Shown here: positions 2,283 through 22,163 of the stretch, in pieces
Layout: each line of letters opens with the position of its first letter
Position numbering within the stretch: the stretch's first letter is position 1
Source of the DNA: Bizionia argentinensis JUB59
GTDB lineage: Bacteria > Bacteroidota > Bacteroidia > Flavobacteriales > Flavobacteriaceae
DNA: 64,000 nt
Reading direction: 5' to 3'
Assembly: GCF_000224335.1 (NCBI RefSeq)
Contig: NZ_AFXZ01000025.1
Location: 62,001-126,000 of the forward strand
The notes under the pieces: generated by a model
Database searches by the model: none
What the model saw: only the letters and a program-made list of their open reading frames with translations
What the model was told of the DNA's origin: nothing
Program-made: the position numbers and the translations under genes

Positions 2283-3320
2283 TTAAGATTTATTCGCCAA
2301 TTGACCACAAGCAGCATCAATATCTTTCCCTCGAGAACGTCTTACCGTTACTGTAATATTGTTCTTTTCAAGCATATTTACATACATGTCTATCGCTTCA
2401 TCATGAGCTTGCTGAAACATACCATCGTCTATTGGGTTGTATTCAATTAAGTTCACTTTACTTGGTGCAAACTTGCAAAATTCTATTAAAGCTTCTACAT
2501 CTTTTTTCTTATCATTGATACCTTTCCAAACAATATACTCATAAGTGATTCTATTTTTTGTTTTGGCATACCAATACTCTAAAGCTTCCCGTAAATCTTT
2601 TAACGGAAACGTGGCATTAAATGGCATAATTGAAGTTCGAATCTCATCAATAGCAGAATGTAGGGAAACGGCTAATTTAAACTTCACCTCTTCGTCTGCC
2701 ATTTTTTTAATCATTTTAGGCACACCAGATGTAGAAACTACGATACGTTTAGGCGACATCCCCAAACCTTCTGGCGAGGTAATTTTATCAATCGCTTTTA
2801 GTACATTATTGTAATTCATAAGGGGCTCACCCATTCCCATAAATACAATGTTACTTAAAGGTCTGTTATGATATAAGCGACTTTCATTATCAATAGCCAC
2901 TACCTGATCATAAATTTCATCAGGATTTAAATTACGCATGCGCTTTAAACGCGATGTTGCGCAAAAAGAGCAATCTAAACTACAGCCAACTTGACTAGAT
3001 ACACAAGCCGTTGTACGCGATTTTGTTGGAATTAAAACCGATTCCACAATTAATCCATCATGTAGTTTTACCGCATTTTTAATCGTACCATCACTACTTT
3101 TTTGCATATCGTCCACTTTTATATGGTTGATAACAAAATTATCTTCAAGCATGGTTCGTGTCTCTTTGGATAAGTTTGTCATATCGGCAAATGTATGCGC
3201 CGATTTACTCCAAAGCCACTCGTAAACCTGATTACCGCGAAAAGCTTTATCACCTTCTTTTTCAAAAAAATCGCGTAATTGGTCTTTAGTTAATGCTCGT
3301 ATGTCTTTTTTATCACTCAT
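2283..3320 (-). CDS. rlmN: 23S rRNA (adenine-2503-C2)/tRNA methyltransferase RlmN
   Basis: A radical SAM enzyme that methylates C2 of A2503 in 23S rRNA and A37 of some tRNAs. The cluster motif CxxxCxxC is at C113, C117 and C120. The two catalytic cysteines correspond to C106 (TTACVSSQ) and C338 (DAACGQLA). I chose the ATG at 3320, which gives MSDKKDIRAL; an in-frame ATG 33 bases upstream adds a hydrophobic stretch unlike the family. The protein has about 345 residues, normal for RlmN. It follows the queA terminator. Confidence 0.96.
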   Translation of the reverse strand: MSDKKDIRALTKDQLRDFFEKEGDKAFRGNQVYEWLWSKSAHTFADMTNLSKETRTMLEDNFVINHIKVDDMQKSSDGTIKNAVKLHDGLIVESVLIPTKSRTTACVSSQVGCSLDCSFCATSRLKRMRNLNPDEIYDQVVAIDNESRLYHNRPLSNIVFMGMGEPLMNYNNVLKAIDKITSPEGLGMSPKRIVVSTSGVPKMIKKMADEEVKFKLAVSLHSAIDEIRTSIMPFNATFPLKDLREALEYWYAKTKNRITYEYIVWKGINDKKKDVEALIEFCKFAPSKVNLIEYNPIDDGMFQQAHDEAIDMYVNMLEKNNITVTVRRSRGKDIDAACGQLANKS

Positions 3321-7663: not shown

Positions 7664-8746
7664 TTACGAATTGATTATTTTATCCTGATGGTTTATCGAC
7701 TCTTGATGCACGGCTTTGAATACACGAAGAATAAACTCCTCACTTAAATTCTTTTCTTCACCTTGTAAAATCATTTTACCTAAAATTTCATTCCAACGTT
7801 TGGTTTGTAAAACCGCCACGTTATGAGATTTTTTAAGTAATCCGATATCGTCTGCTATTTTCATACGCTTTCCTAACATATCAATTAACTGATGATCAAT
7901 TACGTCAATTTGCGTTCGTAAAGTGTTGATTTTGTTTTTAAATTCCGTGGCCTCACCTGTTTCTTTCCTGATTTTTAAATCGTCCATAAACTTTATAAGC
8001 GTGCTCGGTGTAATTTGCTGTGCTGCATCACTCCAAGCATTATCAGGATCATAATGGGTTTCAATCATCAAACCATCATAGTTTAAATCCAGGGCCGTTT
8101 GGCATAAATCAAAAATAATATCGCGGCGCCCGGCAATATGCGATGGATCGAGAATTAATGGTAAATCTGGAAAACGATTTTGCAAGTCGATTGGTAATTG
8201 CCATTCCGGATTATTTCTATAACGTGTTTTCTCATAAGTAGAAAACCCGCGATGAATTACACCTAGATTTTTAATATCGGCGGTATAGAGACGTTCCACA
8301 GCACCTAACCATAAAGCTAAATCGGGATTTACAGGGTTTTTTACTAAAACAGTTTTACCTGTACCTTTCAGCGCATCTGCGATTTCTTGAACAATAAACG
8401 GACTTACGGTAGTTCTAGCGCCAATCCATAACACATCTACATCGTGTTTCAATGCTAATTCTACGTGGTTCGCGTTGGCAACTTCAGTGGCAATTAACAT
8501 ACCTGTTTCTTCTTTTGCTTTCTGCAACCACTTTAAGCCTAATGCACCAACACCTTCAAAATTTCCCGGTCGTGTTCGTGGCTTCCAAATACCCGCTCTT
8601 AAAACGGTAGCATCTGTATCTTTTAACTCATGAGCAATTCTTAAAACTTGCTCTTCTGTTTCAGCACTGCAAGGCCCCGCAATAACTAAAGGGTGGTCTA
8701 ATCCAAAGTTATTTAACCAATTTCCTAATTCTTTTTTGTTTTCCAT
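7664..8746 (-). CDS. bifunctional DAHP synthase / chorismate mutase
   Basis: The N-terminal about 260 residues form a KDPG-aldolase-like 3-deoxy-7-phosphoheptulonate synthase (AGPCSAET near residue 24, GVGALGLKWLQ, ILDPSHIAGRRD). The last about 90 residues form an AroQ-type helical chorismate mutase (RTQIDVIDHQLIDMLGKRM). The protein thus opens the shikimate pathway and also starts the Phe/Tyr branch. Bacteroidetes fusions carry the mutase at the C-terminus, opposite to Bacillus AroA(G). I use the ATG at 8746 (MENKKELGNW); an ATG 24 bases upstream adds only hydrophobic residues. tyrA, the aminotransferase and pheA lie directly upstream. Confidence 0.95.
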   Translation of the reverse strand: MENKKELGNWLNNFGLDHPLVIAGPCSAETEEQVLRIAHELKDTDATVLRAGIWKPRTRPGNFEGVGALGLKWLQKAKEETGMLIATEVANANHVELALKHDVDVLWIGARTTVSPFIVQEIADALKGTGKTVLVKNPVNPDLALWLGAVERLYTADIKNLGVIHRGFSTYEKTRYRNNPEWQLPIDLQNRFPDLPLILDPSHIAGRRDIIFDLCQTALDLNYDGLMIETHYDPDNAWSDAAQQITPSTLIKFMDDLKIRKETGEATEFKNKINTLRTQIDVIDHQLIDMLGKRMKIADDIGLLKKSHNVAVLQTKRWNEILGKMILQGEEKNLSEEFILRVFKAVHQESINHQDKIINS

Positions 8747-8760
8747 AATTATTATAATTT

Positions 8761-8826
8761 CAAAACTCAAATTCTAAAATCCGTTTTTATAGGTTTACTA
8801 TGTTGGAATTTAGAATATCAGTTTTG
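8761..8826 (-). repeat. imperfect inverted repeat before the DAHP synthase gene
   Basis: CAAAACT (8761-8767) with AGTTTTG (8820-8826) and ATTCTAAA (8771-8778) with TTTAGAAT (8809-8816) pair around a 3/3 internal loop and a 30-base apical loop. The RNA hairpin would end 14 bases before the ATG at 8746. No U-tract follows, so it is not an obvious terminator. Confidence 0.5.
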
Positions 8827-8836
8827 GTTCTTAAAT

Positions 8837-9688
8837 TTAATGTATTCCGTTTAATATTTCCTTAATGTGATTGGTATTACTCATTTCTTTATGAATAGCC
8901 TCAAAATTATCCGCTTCCATATAGTTTTTAAACCGGTTTAAATTCTGAATATACTCTTCCAAAGTCTCCAACACATTGACTTTATTTTGCTTAAAAATGG
9001 GTGTCCACATATCGGGCGAACTTTTCGCTAATCGTACGGTTGATGCAAATCCACTGCCTGCCATATCAAAGATATCGCGTTCATTACATTCTTTATCAAT
9101 AACCGTTTTTCCGAGCATAAAAGAACTGATATGTGATAAATGCGACACATAGGCAATATGCTTATCGTGGTCTTTCGGATTCATATAACGAATACGCATG
9201 CCCATAACTTGAAAAATGGCTAATGCGCGTTCTTGCAATTTAAAAGCAGTTTTTTCTACTTCACAAATAATATTTGTTTTCCCTCTAAATAACCCTTCCA
9301 CAGCAGCTTTTGGCCCCGAAAACTCGGTTCCTGCAATGGGATGCGTCGCTAAAAAATTTCGACGTTTATTATGTTTTTCAACTGCTTTACAAATAGCAAC
9401 TTTTGTTGACCCTGATTCCATAACCAAGGTATCGTCATGGATTAAGTCTAGAACCTCTGGCAATATGGTTACTGCTGCATCTACTGGAACGGCTAAAATA
9501 ACGGCATCAGCATTTTTTAAATCGCCAAATTCAGCTTTAGCATCAATAATTTGAAGCACCAATGCTTCATCCAAATGTTCGGGATTGGAATCAATACCGT
9601 AAATTGTGATCTCTGGATTTAAATGCCTGATATCTTTAGCAATACTTCCACCAATTAATCCAACACCTATGATATATATATTTTTCAT
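8837..9688 (-). CDS. tyrA: prephenate dehydrogenase
   Basis: A 283-residue NAD(P)-dependent enzyme that oxidises prephenate to 4-hydroxyphenylpyruvate for tyrosine. The nucleotide-binding loop GVGLIGGS is at residues 8-15. The catalytic region contains THPIAGTEFSGP and the conserved YVSHLSHISS helix. It is monofunctional: chorismate mutase is on the next gene. A small possible hairpin (TAAACCT/AGGTTTA at 9705-9732) lies between the aminotransferase gene and this one, and I give it little weight. Confidence 0.95.
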   Translation of the reverse strand: MKNIYIIGVGLIGGSIAKDIRHLNPEITIYGIDSNPEHLDEALVLQIIDAKAEFGDLKNADAVILAVPVDAAVTILPEVLDLIHDDTLVMESGSTKVAICKAVEKHNKRRNFLATHPIAGTEFSGPKAAVEGLFRGKTNIICEVEKTAFKLQERALAIFQVMGMRIRYMNPKDHDKHIAYVSHLSHISSFMLGKTVIDKECNERDIFDMAGSGFASTVRLAKSSPDMWTPIFKQNKVNVLETLEEYIQNLNRFKNYMEADNFEAIHKEMSNTNHIKEILNGIH

Positions 9689-9740: not shown

Positions 9741-10886
9741 CTATTGCACTCTGGCAATCGCTTCTTCAATAATTTCTGTTGTTGCACATAGAGAAAATCG
9801 CACATAACCTTCCCCATTAGATCCAAATATGGTTCCTGGCGCTATAAAAATGTTATTTTCCTTTAATAATAAATCAATGAATTCTTCAGATTTCACGAAA
9901 GGCGGTAATTTTGCCCAGACAAACATGCCACTTGTATTTTTATCATACGTGCAATTCAATGCATCGGCTAATTCCCAAATACGTTTTCTCCGCTCTTCAT
10001 AAGTTTGATTCAAGCTTTCATACCATAATTTAGAGCAGCTCATAGCTTGGATAGCTGCTTTCTGAATCCCGAATAACATCCCTGAATCCATATTGCTTTT
10101 CACTTTTAAAATAGCATTAATATACTCTGATTTCCCAAGTACCATGCCCACACGCCAACCAGACATATTAAAAGTTTTGCTTAAAGAATTTAGTTCCAAG
10201 CAAACGTCTTTTGCGCCCGGAATTTGTAACATACTTTTAGGATCTCTATTTAAAACGAAACTGTATGGATTATCATTTATTATTAGAATATTATAACGTT
10301 TTGCAAAAGCAATTAGTTTTGTGAAAAACGCATCATTTCCATTGGTACCTGTAGGCATATGCGGATAATTAACCCACATAATTTTCACTTTCGATAAATC
10401 TTGCTCCTCTAAAGCTTCAAAATCTATTAACCAATTTGACGCTTCTGTTAAATCGTAAAAAATAGGCTCTGCTCCCACTAATTTGGTAACAGAGGTATAA
10501 GTTGGATATCCCGGATTAGGGATTAATGCTTGATCGCCTGGATTTAAAAACGCCATGGAAATATGCATAATACCTTCTTTACTCCCCGTCAATGGTAGCA
10601 CTTCTGTGGAAGGGCTCATAAAAACGCCATATTGATCCCTATAAAAAGCCACGATAGCTTCACGAAACTCTGGCAAACCCTGATAACTCTGATATTGATT
10701 GGATTTCGGGTGTGCAAAGCTTTCGGTTAAAGCTTCTATAACTTTTTGTGGCGGATTTAAGTCCGGACTTCCAATGCCTAAATTAATAATAGGCTTGCCG
10801 TTTGACATAAGTAAAGCCACTTCCCGTAATTTTTTCGAAAAGTAGTATTCCTCAACTGTCTGTAAACGATTAGCTAACTCAATCAT
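9741..10886 (-). CDS. PLP-dependent aminotransferase of the aromatic operon
   Basis: A 381-residue fold type I aminotransferase. The PLP lysine is K237 in SLSKTFNMSGWRVG; NPGYPTY and VNYPHMPTG are typical class I segments. Wedged between pheA and tyrA, it most likely converts phenylpyruvate and 4-hydroxyphenylpyruvate to Phe and Tyr, although the LL-diaminopimelate-aminotransferase-like sequence also allows aspartate-type substrates. Its ATG overlaps the pheA stop as TAATG, so it is translationally coupled to pheA. Confidence 0.9.
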   Translation of the reverse strand: MIELANRLQTVEEYYFSKKLREVALLMSNGKPIINLGIGSPDLNPPQKVIEALTESFAHPKSNQYQSYQGLPEFREAIVAFYRDQYGVFMSPSTEVLPLTGSKEGIMHISMAFLNPGDQALIPNPGYPTYTSVTKLVGAEPIFYDLTEASNWLIDFEALEEQDLSKVKIMWVNYPHMPTGTNGNDAFFTKLIAFAKRYNILIINDNPYSFVLNRDPKSMLQIPGAKDVCLELNSLSKTFNMSGWRVGMVLGKSEYINAILKVKSNMDSGMLFGIQKAAIQAMSCSKLWYESLNQTYEERRKRIWELADALNCTYDKNTSGMFVWAKLPPFVKSEEFIDLLLKENNIFIAPGTIFGSNGEGYVRFSLCATTEIIEEAIARVQ

Positions 10887-11710
10887 TATTTCGTGTGTTT
10901 GTATTGGCCTAAAATTTTAAAATCTTCGGCCATAATTTCTAATATAGAGCGTGCTTTTTTAAAGTTACTATAGTTATCAAAAGTCACATCAACAAAAAAA
11001 GCATACTTCCACGGGGTCTCTATTTTTGGAAGCGATTGTATTTTGGTTAAATTCAGCTGGCAATCACTCATTACATTTAAAATCGCTGCTAAACTGCCGC
11101 GCTTATGATCTAATTCAAACTTCAGAGAAGCTTTATCAATTTTAGCCTCGGTAAAATCAGGTTTTTCACGTTGAACAATTACAAAACGTGTTTCATTATG
11201 CTTGATGGTTTGAATGCTGTTAGCCAGAATTTCTAGCTCAAACAAATCGGCAGCTAATTGACTCGCAATTGCTGCAACGCCTTTTAATTGCCCATTTTGA
11301 ATGCGCTGTGCCACTTCCGCTGTATCCTTATCTTCAATGAGTTTGATATGTGGATGTTTTTTAAAAAAAGCTTTACACTGTAACAATGCCATAGGATGGG
11401 AATATACCTCCTGAATATCCTGAATCCCTTGTCCAGGCATGGCCATTAAGTGATGTTGAATGTCTAAATAACGTTCGCCAATAATGTATAAATCATTGTT
11501 GTCAATTAGAGCATAATTCGGAATAATGGAACCTGCTATTGAGTTTTCAAGCGCTATAACCACGGCATCAACGTGCTTATTTAAGAGTTGACTTACAACA
11601 GAATCAAATGATAAACATTCGATTAGCGCAACAGCATTTCCAAAATACTGCTGTGCCGCAATATGATGAAATGACCCTTTTATTCCTTGTATAGCTATAG
11701 CATTATCCAT
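10886..11710 (-). CDS. pheA: prephenate dehydratase
   Basis: This converts prephenate to phenylpyruvate. The catalytic domain covers about residues 1-180 and carries the TRF motif at 174-176. A C-terminal ACT domain (about 195-270) should bind phenylalanine for feedback control; the usual ESRP motif reads QSLP here, as is common in Bacteroidetes. There is no fused chorismate mutase. It is the first enzyme gene of the aromatic operon and lies just behind the leader peptide and attenuator. Confidence 0.95.
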   Translation of the reverse strand: MDNAIAIQGIKGSFHHIAAQQYFGNAVALIECLSFDSVVSQLLNKHVDAVVIALENSIAGSIIPNYALIDNNDLYIIGERYLDIQHHLMAMPGQGIQDIQEVYSHPMALLQCKAFFKKHPHIKLIEDKDTAEVAQRIQNGQLKGVAAIASQLAADLFELEILANSIQTIKHNETRFVIVQREKPDFTEAKIDKASLKFELDHKRGSLAAILNVMSDCQLNLTKIQSLPKIETPWKYAFFVDVTFDNYSNFKKARSILEIMAEDFKILGQYKHTK

Positions 11711-11763
11711 GTTTCCTTCTTCTTTTGTCGTTTTAATTACGTTTCAAACCAAACTATTACAAA

Positions 11764-11794
11764 CAAAAAAAGTCCCGATTTTCATCGAGACTTT
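11764..11794 (-). terminator. attenuator terminator of the pheA operon
   Basis: On the minus strand AAAGTCTCGAT (11784-11794) pairs with ATCGGGACTTT (11769-11779), 11 bp with one G-U pair, around a 4-base loop, and a run of T follows. It lies between the aromatic leader peptide and pheA, about 55 bases before pheA. The 5' arm GTCTCG can instead pair with CGAGAC inside the leader reading frame, giving an antiterminator. Confidence 0.85.
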
Positions 11795-11818
11795 ATATAT
11801 ATAGTTTAATTTTATCTA

Positions 11819-11905
11819 TCAAAAATTACACATACCAGGTCTCGTCTCTTTGCTATAAAAGAAATAATACCAGCTATAATATGTGCTATTTGTATTTGTG
11901 TTCAT
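11819..11905 (-). CDS. aromatic leader peptide (attenuation), 28 residues
   Basis: A short frame from ATG at 11905 to TGA at 11819. Residues 9-17 read YYSWYYFFY: five Tyr, two Phe and one Trp in nine codons, far beyond chance. It lies upstream of a strong intrinsic terminator and of pheA. Known leader peptides such as PheL and TrpL work by ribosome stalling at codons of the regulated amino acid. Stalling here would leave codons 20-23 (GAGACGAGAC) free to pair with the terminator 5' arm. The peptide itself needs no function. The aromatic run fits an operon making Phe and Tyr. Confidence 0.85.
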   Translation of the reverse strand: MNTNTNSTYYSWYYFFYSKETRPGMCNF

Positions 11906-11916
11906 AATTTGAAAGG

Positions 11917-11946
11917 CTAAAGTAGTTAATAATTTGAAAAAACAAA
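11917..11946 (-). promoter_or_regulatory. probable promoter of the pheA leader and operon
   Basis: On the minus strand TTTG (11943-11946) is followed after 18 bases by TACTTTAG (11917-11924), one mismatch from TAnnTTTG. Transcription would begin only a few bases before the leader ATG at 11905, so the leader would be almost leaderless, as is tolerable in a phylum that rarely uses Shine-Dalgarno sites. Confidence 0.45.
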
Positions 11947-12034
11947 ATAAATTACAATTATTTTAAGAATATAAGTTTTCCTTATACCTTCGGCTCACTA
12001 TTATATGTTATTTTTGAAAAAACGAATTTGCTTT

Positions 12035-12949
12035 ATGTCTATTGAAGTTAAAAACATCACCAAATTATACGGCTCTCAAAAAGCGTTAAACAACATTTCT
12101 TTTAAGGTAAATAAACCTGAAATAGTTGGTTTTCTTGGTCCAAATGGCGCCGGAAAATCTACAATGATGAAAATATTAACCACTTATATTGACGCTTCTG
12201 AAGGTGAAGCTAAGGTAAATGGTTTTAGTGTAAGTACCGATAAACAAAACGTGCAGCAGAGCGTTGGGTATTTACCAGAACACAATCCGTTATACCTGGA
12301 TCAATATGTTAGAGAGTATTTAAATTTTAATGCATCGATATATAATGTAGATTCCAAACGGATTGCTGAAGTTATTGTACTAACCGGATTAGCACCCGAA
12401 GCGCATAAAAAGATAGGTCAGCTATCTAAAGGTTATAGACAGCGTGTTGGTTTAGCAAACGCCTTACTTCATAATCCAGATGTATTGATTTTAGATGAGC
12501 CAACAACAGGATTAGATCCGAATCAGTTAGTAGATATTCGTAATTTAATAAAAAGTATAGGTAAGGAAAAAACGGTGTTTTTATCCACACATATTATGCA
12601 GGAAGTTGAAGCCATGTGCGACCGTGTTATTATTATTAATAAAGGTGAAATCGTTGCTAATAAAACTTTGCAAGAATTACGTAATGATAAAGAACAGGTG
12701 GTAATTGTAGAGTTTGATTACCGTGTTGAAACAGTTTTTCTTGAAAAATTACCACATGTAAAAGGAGTAAAAAATATACATGATTTCATTTATGAAATCA
12801 CTTTTGTCACTTCCGAAGATATGCGATCGCATGTATTTGATTTTGCTCATGATAATGAATTGAAGATTCTTCAGCTAAATCAGAAAAACGCCAGTCTAGA
12901 AAGTTTATTTCATGAATTAACAGCCGAAACTAAAACTATTCAAGAATAA
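12035..12949 (+). CDS. gldA: gliding-motility-associated ABC transporter ATPase GldA
   Basis: An ABC ATPase of about 304 residues. Walker A GPNGAGKST, the signature region LSKGYRQRVG and Walker B LILDEPTTGLDP are all present, and a GldA-type C-terminal extension follows. It pairs with GldF/GldG, which are not in the window. I chose ATG 12035 (MSIEVKNITKLYG), the usual GldA start, over an upstream in-frame ATG at 12005. GldA is found in gliding and non-gliding Bacteroidetes, so motility is not proven. It runs tail-to-tail into the next gene with a 14-base overlap. Confidence 0.9.
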   Translation: MSIEVKNITKLYGSQKALNNISFKVNKPEIVGFLGPNGAGKSTMMKILTTYIDASEGEAKVNGFSVSTDKQNVQQSVGYLPEHNPLYLDQYVREYLNFNASIYNVDSKRIAEVIVLTGLAPEAHKKIGQLSKGYRQRVGLANALLHNPDVLILDEPTTGLDPNQLVDIRNLIKSIGKEKTVFLSTHIMQEVEAMCDRVIIINKGEIVANKTLQELRNDKEQVVIVEFDYRVETVFLEKLPHVKGVKNIHDFIYEITFVTSEDMRSHVFDFAHDNELKILQLNQKNASLESLFHELTAETKTIQE

Positions 12950-16235: not shown

Positions 16236-19200
16236 TTAGTTACCGTTTTTTGTCAATCTTAAAATATCTCCAAAAACCCCTCTGGCAGTCACATTTTTTC
16301 CGGCGCCAGCACCTTGAATCACCAAAGGTCTTTCTCCATAAGACTCTGTGAATATTTCGAAAATAGCATCCGACCCTTTTAAAGAGCCTAAAGATGAATT
16401 TTTAGGCACAGAAACTAATTGCACGTCTAATTGCCCCTTACTTTGAAATAAATCACCCGACAAATCGCCAATATATCTCAATACGTGATCTGGTTTTTGT
16501 GCATCTTTCTTACTTTGAAAGGTATTGTTGAGCGCTTCAAGATTTTCTAGGAATTGAGATGTAGAATTATCTCTAAACGCTTCAGGAATTAAATTCTCTA
16601 TATGAATGTCTTCAAATTCATTTTCTAAATCTAACTCACGTGCCAGAATTAATAATTTCCGAGCCACATCGTTGCCGCATAAATCTTCTCGAGGATCTGG
16701 CTCTGTAAAACCACTATCAATTGCTTCTTGTAAAATTTCTGAAAACGGTCTGTTTTCCGCAGAGAACGCATTAAATAAATAACTTAAAGATCCTGAAAAA
16801 ACACCGCGTATACGTGTAATGTTTTCACCTGATTCATGTAATAATTTAATAGTATCTATTAACGGTAATCCAGCACCAACATTCGTTTCATATAAATATT
16901 CCTTTTTATTTTCAGCTAATTTTTCTCTTAAGGTTTTATAAAAATCATAAGAAACGGTATTGGCTATTTTATTTGAAGACACCAAATCGAAACCAGCTTC
17001 GACCAAAGGAATATAATTTTCAATAAAGTCGCCATTTGCCGTATTATCGACTGCAATAAGGTTTTCTAAATGATGTTTTTCAGCATATTCGATAACTGTT
17101 TCAACTTTGGTGCTTTTAACACCTTCCGTTTCTAAATCCTGTTTCCAACTTTCATCTATTCCAGACGCATTTAAAAGAACTTGTTTCGAGTTTGCAATGG
17201 CAAAAACACGTAGCTGAATGTTTCTACGTTTTAAAATAGACTCTGTATTTTCTAAAATCTGATCGATTAGCGTTCCTCCAACCAGGCCTTTTCCAAAGAC
17301 AGCTATATTTATTTTTCTAGCGACTCCAAACACTTGACCGTGAATTACGTTTAACGCTTTATGCAACTGATTTTTCCTCACTACCAAACTCACATTTTTC
17401 CCTGAAATCGTGTTATTGAATAATAAAGGAACAATTTGGTTTTTTATAAGCGCATTATACGGCTGATGGAATTTACTTAAATCCAACCCAATAATAGAAA
17501 TAACTGAAACATCATCTATAATTGAAATTTTATGCACGTCTTTGGTATAAAAGTCGTTTTCAAATTCCTGTTCTAATGCGGCAACAGCCTCTTTTGCGCG
17601 ATTAGCCGCAACTATGAAACCAATACCACGCTCGGACGAGCCTTGCGCAATAATACTCACGCTAATATGATGAATACTCAACGTTTTAAATATTCTGGCA
17701 TCCACGCCTGCTTTTCCTAAAAGACCACGACCTTCAAAATTTATAAGCGACACATTATCTAAAACTGAAAGCGATTTAATGCCTTCAACGTTTGCTTTAG
17801 AAGTGATTATTGTGCCTTTATCTTCAGGGTTAAACGTATTTAAAATTCGTAGATTGATATTTTTTTCAATAAGCGGAACAATGGTTTTCGCATGTAAAAT
17901 AGTCGTTCCAAAATTGGCTAACTCATTTGCTTCCGCAAAAGACAGCTGATCTATTTTCTTGGCATCAGCCACTAAATCTGGATTTGCTGTATAAATACCA
18001 TTCACATGCGTATAACTTTCCAGTTCTTCAGCATCTAAATAATTAGCCAATAGAGAAGCGGTATAATTACTACCGTTGCGACCTAATGTGGTGGTTTGAT
18101 TTTTTAAATTTGATGCAATAAAGCCTGAAACAATATGTACGGTATTGCCATTATATTTATCAAAATGGGCTTTTACATTTTTCTCTGAAACTGCCAAAAT
18201 AGGTTGTGCATCGCCAAAATTTGCATCGGTTTTTATTAATAAACGCGCATCTGTAGCATGTGCTTTTATACCGCGATCCGTTAATAATTGCGTGACTATT
18301 TTTGTTGCTAGTAATTCGCCTTGGGCTAAAACGGCATCTTTTATCTTTTCGCTATAATCTTCAAGTAAATTCACTCCTTCTAAAAGGGTATCTAATTTTG
18401 AAAACTCTTCAGTGAAGTCCACAGATTTTAGAGGCTCAATTTGATAGGCTTTAAAAGCTTCCAACTCATCTTTATAAGCTTGATTAGTCGCTGCTTTTTC
18501 AAGAATAGCTTCTAATTCGTTCGTCGCATTTCCTCTGGCAGAAACGACCACTGCAATATGTTGTTTTGCTTTTACTTTAGTTTCTATAATTGAGAGCACC
18601 CTCTTTAATCCGTTTCCGTTTGCTAAAGACTTCCCTCCAAATTTTAATATTTTCATATTCTTTTCTTTTGTATCAGGTTTAAAAATTCCTGAAATAATTT
18701 TTTCTAATTGTTCAAATTCTATCAAAAACGCATCGTGCCCGTGAATGGATTGGATTTCATTATAAGTCACATTTGGATGTATCAAGGCCAGTTGTTTTTG
18801 AGTTTCCCTATTTTCTTCAGCTGTAAAAAACAAATCTGAATCCACACCTATTATATGAATGTTGGCTTGAATGCGATCTAAAATATCCAAACTGTGTTCG
18901 CCTCCATTGGTAACATCAATTGTTTTCAGTAATTGATTCATTAATTTATAGGACGCCAACTGATAGCGTTCTTGTAATTTTTTACCGTGATGCAGCAACC
19001 AACTTTCCACATTAAAAATCTGTAAATCACTATTTTTAGTTCTTTGAAACCGTGCTTTAAAAGAAGCTGGTGTTCTATAACACATCATGGCATGCATTCG
19101 GGCATCGTGAACTGGATTGCAGGAGTTGACTAAAAACTGTTCTTGGATTTGACAGTTGGCAATCAGCCAATCCGTCGCTTTCCAATCGCTTGCCACCGGA

Positions 19201-19634
19201 ATAAAATGTGTTGCCAAATCGGGTTTTATCGCTAACATTTCCCAAGCAATTCCACCACCTAAAGAGCCGCCAATTACAGCGAATAAACTCTCAATTTGAA
19301 GTTTTTGTAATCCTAATAGAAACAGCTTTGCCATATCTTTAGCAATAAAGCTTTTGTAGTCTTCGATTATAAAATCATCATAACCGTTTCCTGGAATATT
19401 AAAAGCTAAAACCGTATATAGTTTCGTATCGATAACCTTTTCTGTTCCAATGAGATCTTTCCACCAACCTTCCGCTCCCGACACATCGCTATTCCCCGTC
19501 AACGCATGGTTAACCAGTACAATTGGCGCAGTACCTAACGATTTCCCAAACAGTTGGTAAGACAATTTTAGAGAAATTGTCTTACCGCTTACTGTGGTGA
19601 AATATGAAATAGGAATGTATTTTAATTGCGACAT
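16236..19634 (-). CDS. thrA: trifunctional homoserine O-acetyltransferase - aspartokinase - homoserine dehydrogenase
   Basis: One 1132-residue frame holds three enzymes. Residues 1-320 are a MetX-type alpha/beta hydrolase with nucleophile S124 (GGSLGGG), D267 and H300 (GHDAFL). Residues 327 to about 615 are an aspartokinase starting MKILKFGGKS, followed by ACT domains to about 770. From 774 the homoserine dehydrogenase begins, with the NAD(P) loop GKGLVGGT at 781-788. It would take aspartate to aspartyl phosphate, later reduce the semialdehyde to homoserine, and acetylate homoserine for methionine. The stretch 321-327 (DTKEKNM) looks like the junction, with an internal Met at the old aspartokinase start. 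It directly abuts osmC and lies in the SAM-I controlled operon. Confidence 0.93.
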   Translation of the reverse strand: MSQLKYIPISYFTTVSGKTISLKLSYQLFGKSLGTAPIVLVNHALTGNSDVSGAEGWWKDLIGTEKVIDTKLYTVLAFNIPGNGYDDFIIEDYKSFIAKDMAKLFLLGLQKLQIESLFAVIGGSLGGGIAWEMLAIKPDLATHFIPVASDWKATDWLIANCQIQEQFLVNSCNPVHDARMHAMMCYRTPASFKARFQRTKNSDLQIFNVESWLLHHGKKLQERYQLASYKLMNQLLKTIDVTNGGEHSLDILDRIQANIHIIGVDSDLFFTAEENRETQKQLALIHPNVTYNEIQSIHGHDAFLIEFEQLEKIISGIFKPDTKEKNMKILKFGGKSLANGNGLKRVLSIIETKVKAKQHIAVVVSARGNATNELEAILEKAATNQAYKDELEAFKAYQIEPLKSVDFTEEFSKLDTLLEGVNLLEDYSEKIKDAVLAQGELLATKIVTQLLTDRGIKAHATDARLLIKTDANFGDAQPILAVSEKNVKAHFDKYNGNTVHIVSGFIASNLKNQTTTLGRNGSNYTASLLANYLDAEELESYTHVNGIYTANPDLVADAKKIDQLSFAEANELANFGTTILHAKTIVPLIEKNINLRILNTFNPEDKGTIITSKANVEGIKSLSVLDNVSLINFEGRGLLGKAGVDARIFKTLSIHHISVSIIAQGSSERGIGFIVAANRAKEAVAALEQEFENDFYTKDVHKISIIDDVSVISIIGLDLSKFHQPYNALIKNQIVPLLFNNTISGKNVSLVVRKNQLHKALNVIHGQVFGVARKINIAVFGKGLVGGTLIDQILENTESILKRRNIQLRVFAIANSKQVLLNASGIDESWKQDLETEGVKSTKVETVIEYAEKHHLENLIAVDNTANGDFIENYIPLVEAGFDLVSSNKIANTVSYDFYKTLREKLAENKKEYLYETNVGAGLPLIDTIKLLHESGENITRIRGVFSGSLSYLFNAFSAENRPFSEILQEAIDSGFTEPDPREDLCGNDVARKLLILARELDLENEFEDIHIENLIPEAFRDNSTSQFLENLEALNNTFQSKKDAQKPDHVLRYIGDLSGDLFQSKGQLDVQLVSVPKNSSLGSLKGSDAIFEIFTESYGERPLVIQGAGAGKNVTARGVFGDILRLTKNGN

Positions 19635-21687: not shown

Positions 21688-21693
21688 GTTTGA

Positions 21694-21814
21694 GTTATCT
21701 ATCCAATATTTCGATTAATGAATCGAAAATTAAGTAGAATTTAGCACCTTCATAGTATAGAACTAAGGGTTGCTAAGGCTTCAGCGGGTCTATCCCTCCA
21801 CCTTTCTTGATAAC
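21694..21814 (-). promoter_or_regulatory. SAM-I (S-box) riboswitch upstream of metY
   Basis: On the minus strand the 121-base element starts GTTATCAAGAAAGGTGGAGG, continues with GAAGCC and GCAACC, and ends with GGTGCTAA and a P1 closing strand GATAAC. P1 is the perfect 6-bp pair GTTATC (21809-21814)/GATAAC (21694-21699). These are the conserved S-box core segments that bind S-adenosylmethionine. It controls metY, osmC and the MetX-AK-HSDH gene. A further hairpin (CGTAAAAA/TTTTTACG, 21462-21483) lies closer to the metY start. Confidence 0.93.
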
Positions 21815-21953
21815 ATTTTTGGAATTTTTTAAAAGCAAAATTTTGCATTTTAAAAATATTCCTTTACAGTAAGTCTTTGAACTTTGTGAGCACAAATATT
21901 GCAACACAAATTTGTAATAACCAAATTAAATGTGAAAAAAAGTATAAATAATT

Positions 21954-21981: not shown

Positions 21982-21992
21982 TACAGTAATAA

Positions 21993-22090
21993 TTAAGAGG
22001 AAAAATTTGTCTGATTGCAACCTCTTCAAACCACTATTTTTCTCTAAAAACGAGACTTCATTTGGTATGGAAATAAATGCTAAAGCAGTT
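21993..22090 (+). promoter_or_regulatory. SAM-II-type riboswitch with an enlarged loop, upstream of metK
   Basis: Stem AAGAGG (21995-22000)/CCTCTT (22021-22026) encloses a loop with ATTTG and GATTGCAA (22013-22020), matching the SAM-II core. A downstream GCTAAAG (22079-22085) is the SAM-II pseudoknot strand. In canonical SAM-II this strand lies about a dozen bases after the stem; here it lies 52 bases after, as in the SAM-II long-loops variants reported from Bacteroidetes. The insert may carry a small ACCA/TGGT stem. Binding of SAM would repress SAM synthetase. Confidence 0.82.
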
Positions 22091-22163
22091 TTTTGTACTA
22101 CTCTAGCAGGCTTTTGCAATCATACAGTTTTTCACAATGTACAATACATAAATACGTGATACT

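Follow-up and report, generated by a model that had tools for sequence, protein, structure and literature searches.

A probable ribosome-mediated attenuator ahead of the pheA operon of Bizionia argentinensis and its conservation among relatives

What does a short reading frame crowded with aromatic codons do directly upstream of pheA in Bizionia argentinensis, and do this frame and the hairpin behind it act as one control element? We addressed this question in a window of 64,000 nucleotides from contig NZ_AFXZ01000025.1, the numbering of which is used throughout; all parts of the element lie on its minus strand. The leader frame (11905..11819, 28 codons plus stop, conserved in relatives) translates into the 28-residue peptide MNTNTNSTYYSWYYFFYSKETRPGMCNF, and its residues 9-17, YYSWYYFFY (11855..11881; five Tyr, two Phe and one Trp), form the aromatic codon run, i.e. 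the proposed stall site. The first-pass annotation had described this frame without giving a strand, and we could confirm it on the minus strand. Still within the frame lies segment 2, CGAGAC (11839..11844), which complementarity and folds mark as the 5' strand of a putative antiterminator, and it is followed by segment 3, GTCTCG (11786..11791), the 5' arm of the terminator and common to antiterminator and terminator. The complementarity of the two, which had already been pointed out, is exact (11844..11839 against 11791..11786). The predicted terminator, hairpin 3:4 with a T-run (AAAGTCTCGATGAAAATCGGGACTTT, 11794..11769, −13.4 kcal/mol), is completed by segment 4 (11779..11769), the partner of segment 3 in the 3' arm; its T-run is apparent from the sequence at 11771..11765. 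The terminator is the only terminator-like hairpin within positions 11000-12600, and shuffles of that region average 1.2, so that the scan alone is at chance level and the hairpin's distinction comes from its conservation. As for the codon run, the 450-nt upstream region in the window was shuffled 2000 times with dinucleotides preserved, and 5 of these shuffles contained an ORF with eight or more aromatics among 12 residues. On the plus strand, the wrong one for the element, folding 221 nt of the region gave an unremarkable result (z −1.8), which was discarded.

The genes read from the minus strand behind the T-run, from which the pheA ATG is separated by 54 nt, are pheA, encoding prephenate dehydratase (10886..11710; PF00800, with an ACT match under its Pfam cut-off), a class I/II aminotransferase gene assigned by family profiles (9741..10886), tyrA, encoding prephenate dehydrogenase (8837..9688; NF006307 above cut-off), and a gene for a fusion of DAHP synthase and chorismate mutase (7664..8770; PF00793 and PF01817). 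Their products serve the synthesis of both Phe and Tyr. The leader frame is short and rich in codons for the amino acids made by this operon, and the predicted intrinsic terminator lies between it and the first gene, which bears out the earlier description of a terminator placed after the leader and before a Phe/Tyr operon. Upstream of the leader, a divergent ORF resembles an ABC-transporter ATP-binding protein by eye.

The first-pass annotation had proposed an alignment of relatives as the test of its reading, and we compared two samples. Near loci were the best 80 of 259 confirmed pheA loci, from records named Flavobacteriaceae, Flavobacteriales or uncultured Bacteroidota; a wider sampling of genomes with a pheA match comprised all 38 of the family besides B. 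argentinensis itself, 22 of 45 at the class level, 20 of 248 at the phylum level and none of 8 at the order level. All 80 near loci (best 80 of 259) share the gene order pheA, aminotransferase, tyrA, DAHP synthase, and a leader with a terminator precedes pheA in 79 of them; at the remaining locus (L007) the contig end cuts inside the leader, the tail and the terminator still being present. Within 450 nt, a leader with at least six aromatics in 12 residues was found at 77 of the 80 near loci, and at two further ones (L017, L032) the leader lies further upstream. At least seven aromatics in 12 are present in 38 of 38 further family genomes and in 18 of the 22 class-level genomes sampled. Three class-level exceptions (L120, L121, L123) have aroA running up to pheA, which therefore sits inside another operon there, and in the fourth (L127) pheA is preceded by aroA and a further frame. 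Over 140 upstream regions, i.e. leaving out L007 as too short, the same threshold was reached in 132, compared with 7 of 700 shuffles and 1 of 140 antisense strands. The aromatic codons are thus conserved in Flavobacteriaceae and beyond, as the proposed test asked. Among the 20 distant phylum-level genomes sampled, an aromatic leader is present in three and absent from 17. Three genomes placed outside the class (L146, L147, L148) carry a pheA near the Bacteroidia type (E 5e-70 to 7e-67) together with an aromatic leader, and either transfer or misplacement may account for this combination. In four Gelidibacter records (L015, L017, L032, L039), repeat-like blocks lie between the terminator and pheA, and the attenuator is 156-517 nt away from the pheA match.

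Where would transcription of the leader begin? A putative sigma-A −7 box of the TAnnTTTG type, TACTTTAG (11917..11924, minus strand), was recognized from the sequence and its relatives, and 18 nt before it lies TTTG (11943..11946, minus strand), a putative −33 element named after the consensus that we take to apply. A TAnnTT(T/A)G motif occurs at most 60 nt upstream of the leader ATG at 78 of 80 near loci (best 80 of 259) and at 34 of 54 wide loci, compared with 47 of 840 background windows; TTG or TTTG starts 19-27 nt before the box at 74 of the 78 near loci with a box and at 27 of 34 wide loci, both counted without a background. Taking the box to span −12 to −5, a position given in a part of PMC9723704, the transcript start is predicted near 11912, 7 nt before the leader ATG. 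The near-leaderless start that had been suggested for the leader frame is consequently plausible in view of the conserved box, the start near 11912 itself being a prediction.

We examined the pairing between the leader tail and the terminator in 141 regions, 134 of which gave a leader and a gapless hairpin (dropped were L007, L120, L121, L123 and L127 with no leader in reach, and L137 and L139 with no gapless hairpin). These 134 regions have, within the leader tail, a segment 2 that is complementary to segment 3, the complementarity being weak in four class-level members (L129, 3 nt; L122 and L141, 5 nt; L133, 6 nt). In the alignment of near relatives, A1, segment 3 is invariant in 61 of 61 rows and both its partners wobble, which is what a strand that pairs with either of two mutually exclusive partners should show. 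Two-sided pair changes within A1 were found in neither helix; since segment 3 is common to both helices and invariant, we rejected such changes as a test, and the case for co-variation rests on the comparison across clades. Here, segments 2, 3 and 4 change jointly, yielding 58 distinct triplets, e.g. CGAGAC/GTCTCG/CGGGAC, GGGATTGT/ACAATCCC/GGGATTTT, ACGGGACT/AGTCCCGT/ACGGGACT and CGAGGCTTT/AAAGCCTCG/CGAGGCTTT. When arms were permuted among 12 arm clusters, the complementarity of tails to their own arms (17.25) exceeded the permuted mean (12.17) and was reached in 0 of 2000 permutations, and the wide set of 55 regions gave a similar picture (19.6 versus 13.7 permuted; 0 of 2000). Choosing segment 2 as the best complement of the arm inflates the score of the own arm, but the permutations pick likewise for foreign arms. 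The individual clusters give a less clear picture: 7 of 12 have at least one foreign arm with a score as high as that of the own arm, the worst being L122 (8 of 11 foreign arms) and L141 (4 of 11). The fold energy of the stalled-state RNA likewise separates own from permuted arms (−14.95 versus −9.79, 0 of 5000; wide set, −17.22 versus −11.63, 0 of 3000). A cruder swap control, which asked for five or more tail-arm pairs in the fold, was passed with 68 of 69 own arms but also with 178 of 207 foreign ones and could not tell the two apart, probably because arms of different clusters resemble each other. Overall, an antiterminator pairing that is exclusive with the terminator is kept by co-variation between clades and not by two-sided changes within A1, so that the alternative pairing, the other part of the proposed test, also holds in the form of segments 2 and 3 changing together.

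The predicted folds are in line with this exclusivity. To mimic a stalled ribosome we removed the RNA upstream of segment 2, and segment 4 was omitted to represent the state before its synthesis; at least 80% of the chosen 2:3 pairs then form in 133 of 134 regions, and the stalled-state fold has a mean z of −3.9 (n = 69). Full leader folds show the terminator in 133 of 134, and in 124 of 134 segment 2 is at least half paired with upstream RNA. In the window, the minimum free energy fold contains a 1:2 hairpin (11845..11864, minus strand), in which UUUCUUU from the aromatic codons (11864..11858) pairs with AAAGAGA (11851..11845); it adjoins segment 2, and an outer helix links 11886..11877 with the end of the leader ORF. 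RNAalifold of the relatives returned the terminator and a second hairpin, UUUCUUUUUU of the aromatic codons pairing with AAAAGAAACGAGA (columns 42-51/57-67), which covers part of segment 2. The modelled folds thus show three mutually exclusive states, one in which the aromatic codons hide segment 2, one with the 2:3 pairing and one with the 3:4 pairing. The energies of the window's antiterminator and terminator are of similar size (−16.6 and −13.4 kcal/mol). The distance from the last aromatic codon to the beginning of segment 2 is 7-14 nt in 130 of 134 regions, and a ribosome with the last aromatic codon in its A site would end about where segment 2 starts. With this gap a ribosome on the codon run would leave segment 2 free, and we argue that one at the stop codon would cover it.

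With high confidence we regard the element as a ribosome-mediated transcription attenuator of the pheL/trpL type, and from its parts, their conservation, co-variation and spacing and the three folds we infer the following course of events. Transcription would start a few bases before the leader ORF. When Tyr-tRNA or Phe-tRNA is short, the ribosome would stall in the run of Tyr and Phe (and Trp) codons and cover segment 1, i.e. the codon stretch, leaving CGAGAC of segment 2 free to pair with segment 3 (GUCUCG) once this is made; no terminator would form, and the operon from pheA through the aminotransferase gene and tyrA to the DAHP synthase gene would be read. When both amino acids are plentiful, the ribosome would reach the leader stop and cover segment 2, so that segment 3 would pair with segment 4 and transcription would end before pheA. 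Without a ribosome, segment 1 would hide segment 2, and again the terminator would win. The earlier proposal of pheL/trpL logic, in which stalling exposes the antiterminator, is supported in its core by the pairing and the folds; it had overlooked the third state, in which the aromatic-codon stretch pairs with segment 2 and hides it when no ribosome is present. The 12-residue cluster contains Phe as well as Tyr in all 134 leaders and Trp in 88 of them, and accordingly the suggestion that several aromatic acids are sensed at once is backed for the first two and more weakly for Trp. Charged tRNA-Tyr and charged tRNA-Phe would be what the attenuator senses, perhaps along with charged tRNA-Trp. 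The codon content is most simply read as a joint Phe/Tyr signal, to which Trp may contribute in a minor way or in particular clades. Such a device would explain how a joint Phe/Tyr operon can be set by two amino acids at once.

The same parts could in principle control translation instead, with a hairpin that hides the pheA start region and is opened by a stalled ribosome, which would make premature termination unnecessary. Indeed, the hairpin ends at most 15 nt from the start of the pheA match in 35 of 134 regions, and at several loci the T-run goes straight into the pheA ATG. However, the distance from the terminator to the pheA match start varies from 5 to 517 nt over the 134 regions, lying at 61-150 nt in 34 and above 150 nt in four (L015, L017, L032, L039), and the hairpin and its T-run stay, a variability that suits termination rather than the hiding of a start codon; the 54 nt between T-run and ATG in the window speak against translational control as well, which we consider improbable. 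Still less credit is due to the idea that the short ORF is the gene of a small functional protein (the TYYNWFYFFF peptide) and that the terminator simply ends this gene. The leader peptide is highly conserved among near relatives, as this idea would have it, but it has no Pfam match, from clade to clade its tail varies together with the terminator arm, and five orthologues lose the tail and keep the RNA past the stop: in L006, L031, L046, L054 and L061 the ORF stops at most three codons after the last aromatic, and a GAGAC, GAGGC or GGGGC segment still follows. The choice of tail codons is constrained, too. In the 80 near leaders, Glu at the place of segment 2 (tail codons 4-5) is encoded by GAG 73 times and never by GAA, tail GAA being found only at tail codons 1-2, compared with 398 GAG and 1195 GAA in the pheA genes; tail Asn is encoded by AAC 63 times and by AAT twice (pheA genes, 298 and 783). 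These sequence comparisons indicate that the RNA, besides the peptide, is under constraint in the leader tail.

A conserved, structured 5' element with a terminator might also be a metabolite riboswitch or a protein-bound terminator for Phe or Tyr, with the ORF incidental. We consider this about as far-fetched as a small protein: no Rfam family reaches its gathering score at the pheA leader, whereas SAM-I and SAM-II riboswitches were detected at other positions of the window; what is conserved at the core of the element is the codon run, in which Phe occurs alongside Tyr in all 134 regions; and at hisG and trpE the corresponding position is taken by His and Trp codons, respectively. The Rfam model coming up here, RF01859 (Phe_leader), gave 25.9 bits (E 0.034), far below its gathering score of 55. 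The window leader aligns with this model over its full length, in which it resembles E. coli pheL. There, a leader peptide with Phe codons precedes pheA and is followed by a terminator, with exclusive 1:2, 2:3 and 3:4 pairings, and the attenuator proposed here for B. argentinensis shares the aromatic leader peptide before pheA, the terminator and the exclusive pairings. In contrast to pheL, with its Phe codons, the Bizionia leader mixes Tyr, Phe and Trp codons and would control a combined Phe and Tyr operon, and it is further set apart by the position of its leader ORF, a few bases behind the predicted beginning of the transcript.

The trpL and hisL leaders of Proteobacteria combine a run of cognate codons, a terminator and alternative hairpins, and two other leaders of the own genome follow that plan. 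The hisG gene is preceded by the His leader MTFIQSHHHHFHTCTQAG (HHHHFH) and a terminator (L166:1141-1197), in whose 5' arm GTTTGAGT is the pairing partner of the leader tail ACTCAAGC. The trpE gene is preceded by the Trp leader MNTILNYTWWWNNRNEIIVN (WWW) and a terminator (L167, L192), and here the tail TCGTGAA is complementary to the loop and the 3' arm, not to the 5' arm. Unlike in trpL, segment 2 (TCGTGA) of most trp leaders in our set pairs with the hairpin loop and 3' arm rather than with the 5' arm. With simple thresholds and no shuffle control, a His leader with a terminator was found at 20 of 21 hisG loci and a Trp leader with a terminator at 21 of 22 trpE loci, each including the own one; hisG was present in 21 of 31 genomes searched. 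At one hisG locus (L175) the His leader is present, and a hairpin was searched for and not found, and at L193 there is no leader in the sequence stretch examined. In several hisG and trpE leaders, the complement between tail and hairpin is short. A search of the own genome with model R1, which is usable to annotate close relatives of the pheA leader element, scored the pheA leader alone highly (108.3 bits). The next three of ten further matches (32.5, 31.7 and 30 bits) are by eye ordinary terminators at gene ends and were rejected as copies of the element, and a branched-chain-like short ORF with a terminator before window position 3320 was judged to be due to chance. No match to ilvD (PF00920) was found in the own genome.

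How much of this is new? A 2021 transcriptome study of Flavobacterium psychrophilum (PMC9723704) reports, in one section, a structured 5' element upstream of pheA that is conserved in Flavobacteriaceae and has no Rfam hit, and the same section mentions clues for leader-peptide attenuation of amino-acid operons; that section gives no pheA leader sequence, pairing or mechanism, and the leader-peptide elements are not singled out in it. The first-pass annotation had called the element notable in a Bacteroidete, and this notability is lowered by the prior report. For Bacteroides thetaiotaomicron, a passage of PMC7366714 describes long 5' UTRs with leader-peptide-like short ORFs, its example being BT_4401, a hypothetical protein, and neither an amino-acid operon nor a pairing figures in that passage. 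Lopatovskaya et al. 2010 on attenuation in bacteria, cited in PMC4833913, may overlap part of these results, and the relevant part of PMC8305728, on the his genes of Bacteroidota, mentions attenuation for enterobacteria only. The mechanism, the cross-clade co-variation and the breadth of the pheA attenuator were not found in the literature searched, which consisted mostly of papers outside subscription. The element was therefore already noted in print and its kind is classical; what is added here is mechanism-level evidence, the co-variation across clades and the breadth.

From the pheA, hisG and trpE leaders together, we lean slightly towards the view that throughout the class Bacteroidia, where Shine-Dalgarno sites are few and the leader ORFs would be nearly leaderless, Phe/Tyr, His and Trp operons are generally controlled by ribosome-mediated attenuation, and that the pheA version takes Tyr and Phe, joined by Trp in many species, as a single signal. 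If true, this would require ribosome and RNA polymerase to move closely together. Attenuation by a leader peptide depends on translation keeping up with transcription, and a conserved set of such elements in Bacteroidia would thus be a natural probe of coupling; for comparison, Bacillus subtilis is reported to be uncoupled in the part of PMC7819879 concerned. We see the main interest of the pheA attenuator, which is real and well conserved and, judging from sequence comparison and modelled folds, very probably works by ribosome stalling, in this use as a probe of transcription-translation coupling in Bacteroidota. It would also provide a concrete regulatory RNA in a phylum that, according to PMC9723704, has signals for the start of translation other than the Shine-Dalgarno type.

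Elsewhere in the window, the Rfam search placed the SAM-I (21692-21816, minus strand) and SAM-II (21991-22093, plus strand) riboswitches about 175 nt apart on opposite strands. At 16236-19634 on the minus strand, an ORF of 1132 aa appears by eye to fuse a homoserine acetyltransferase-like part to an aspartokinase/homoserine dehydrogenase.
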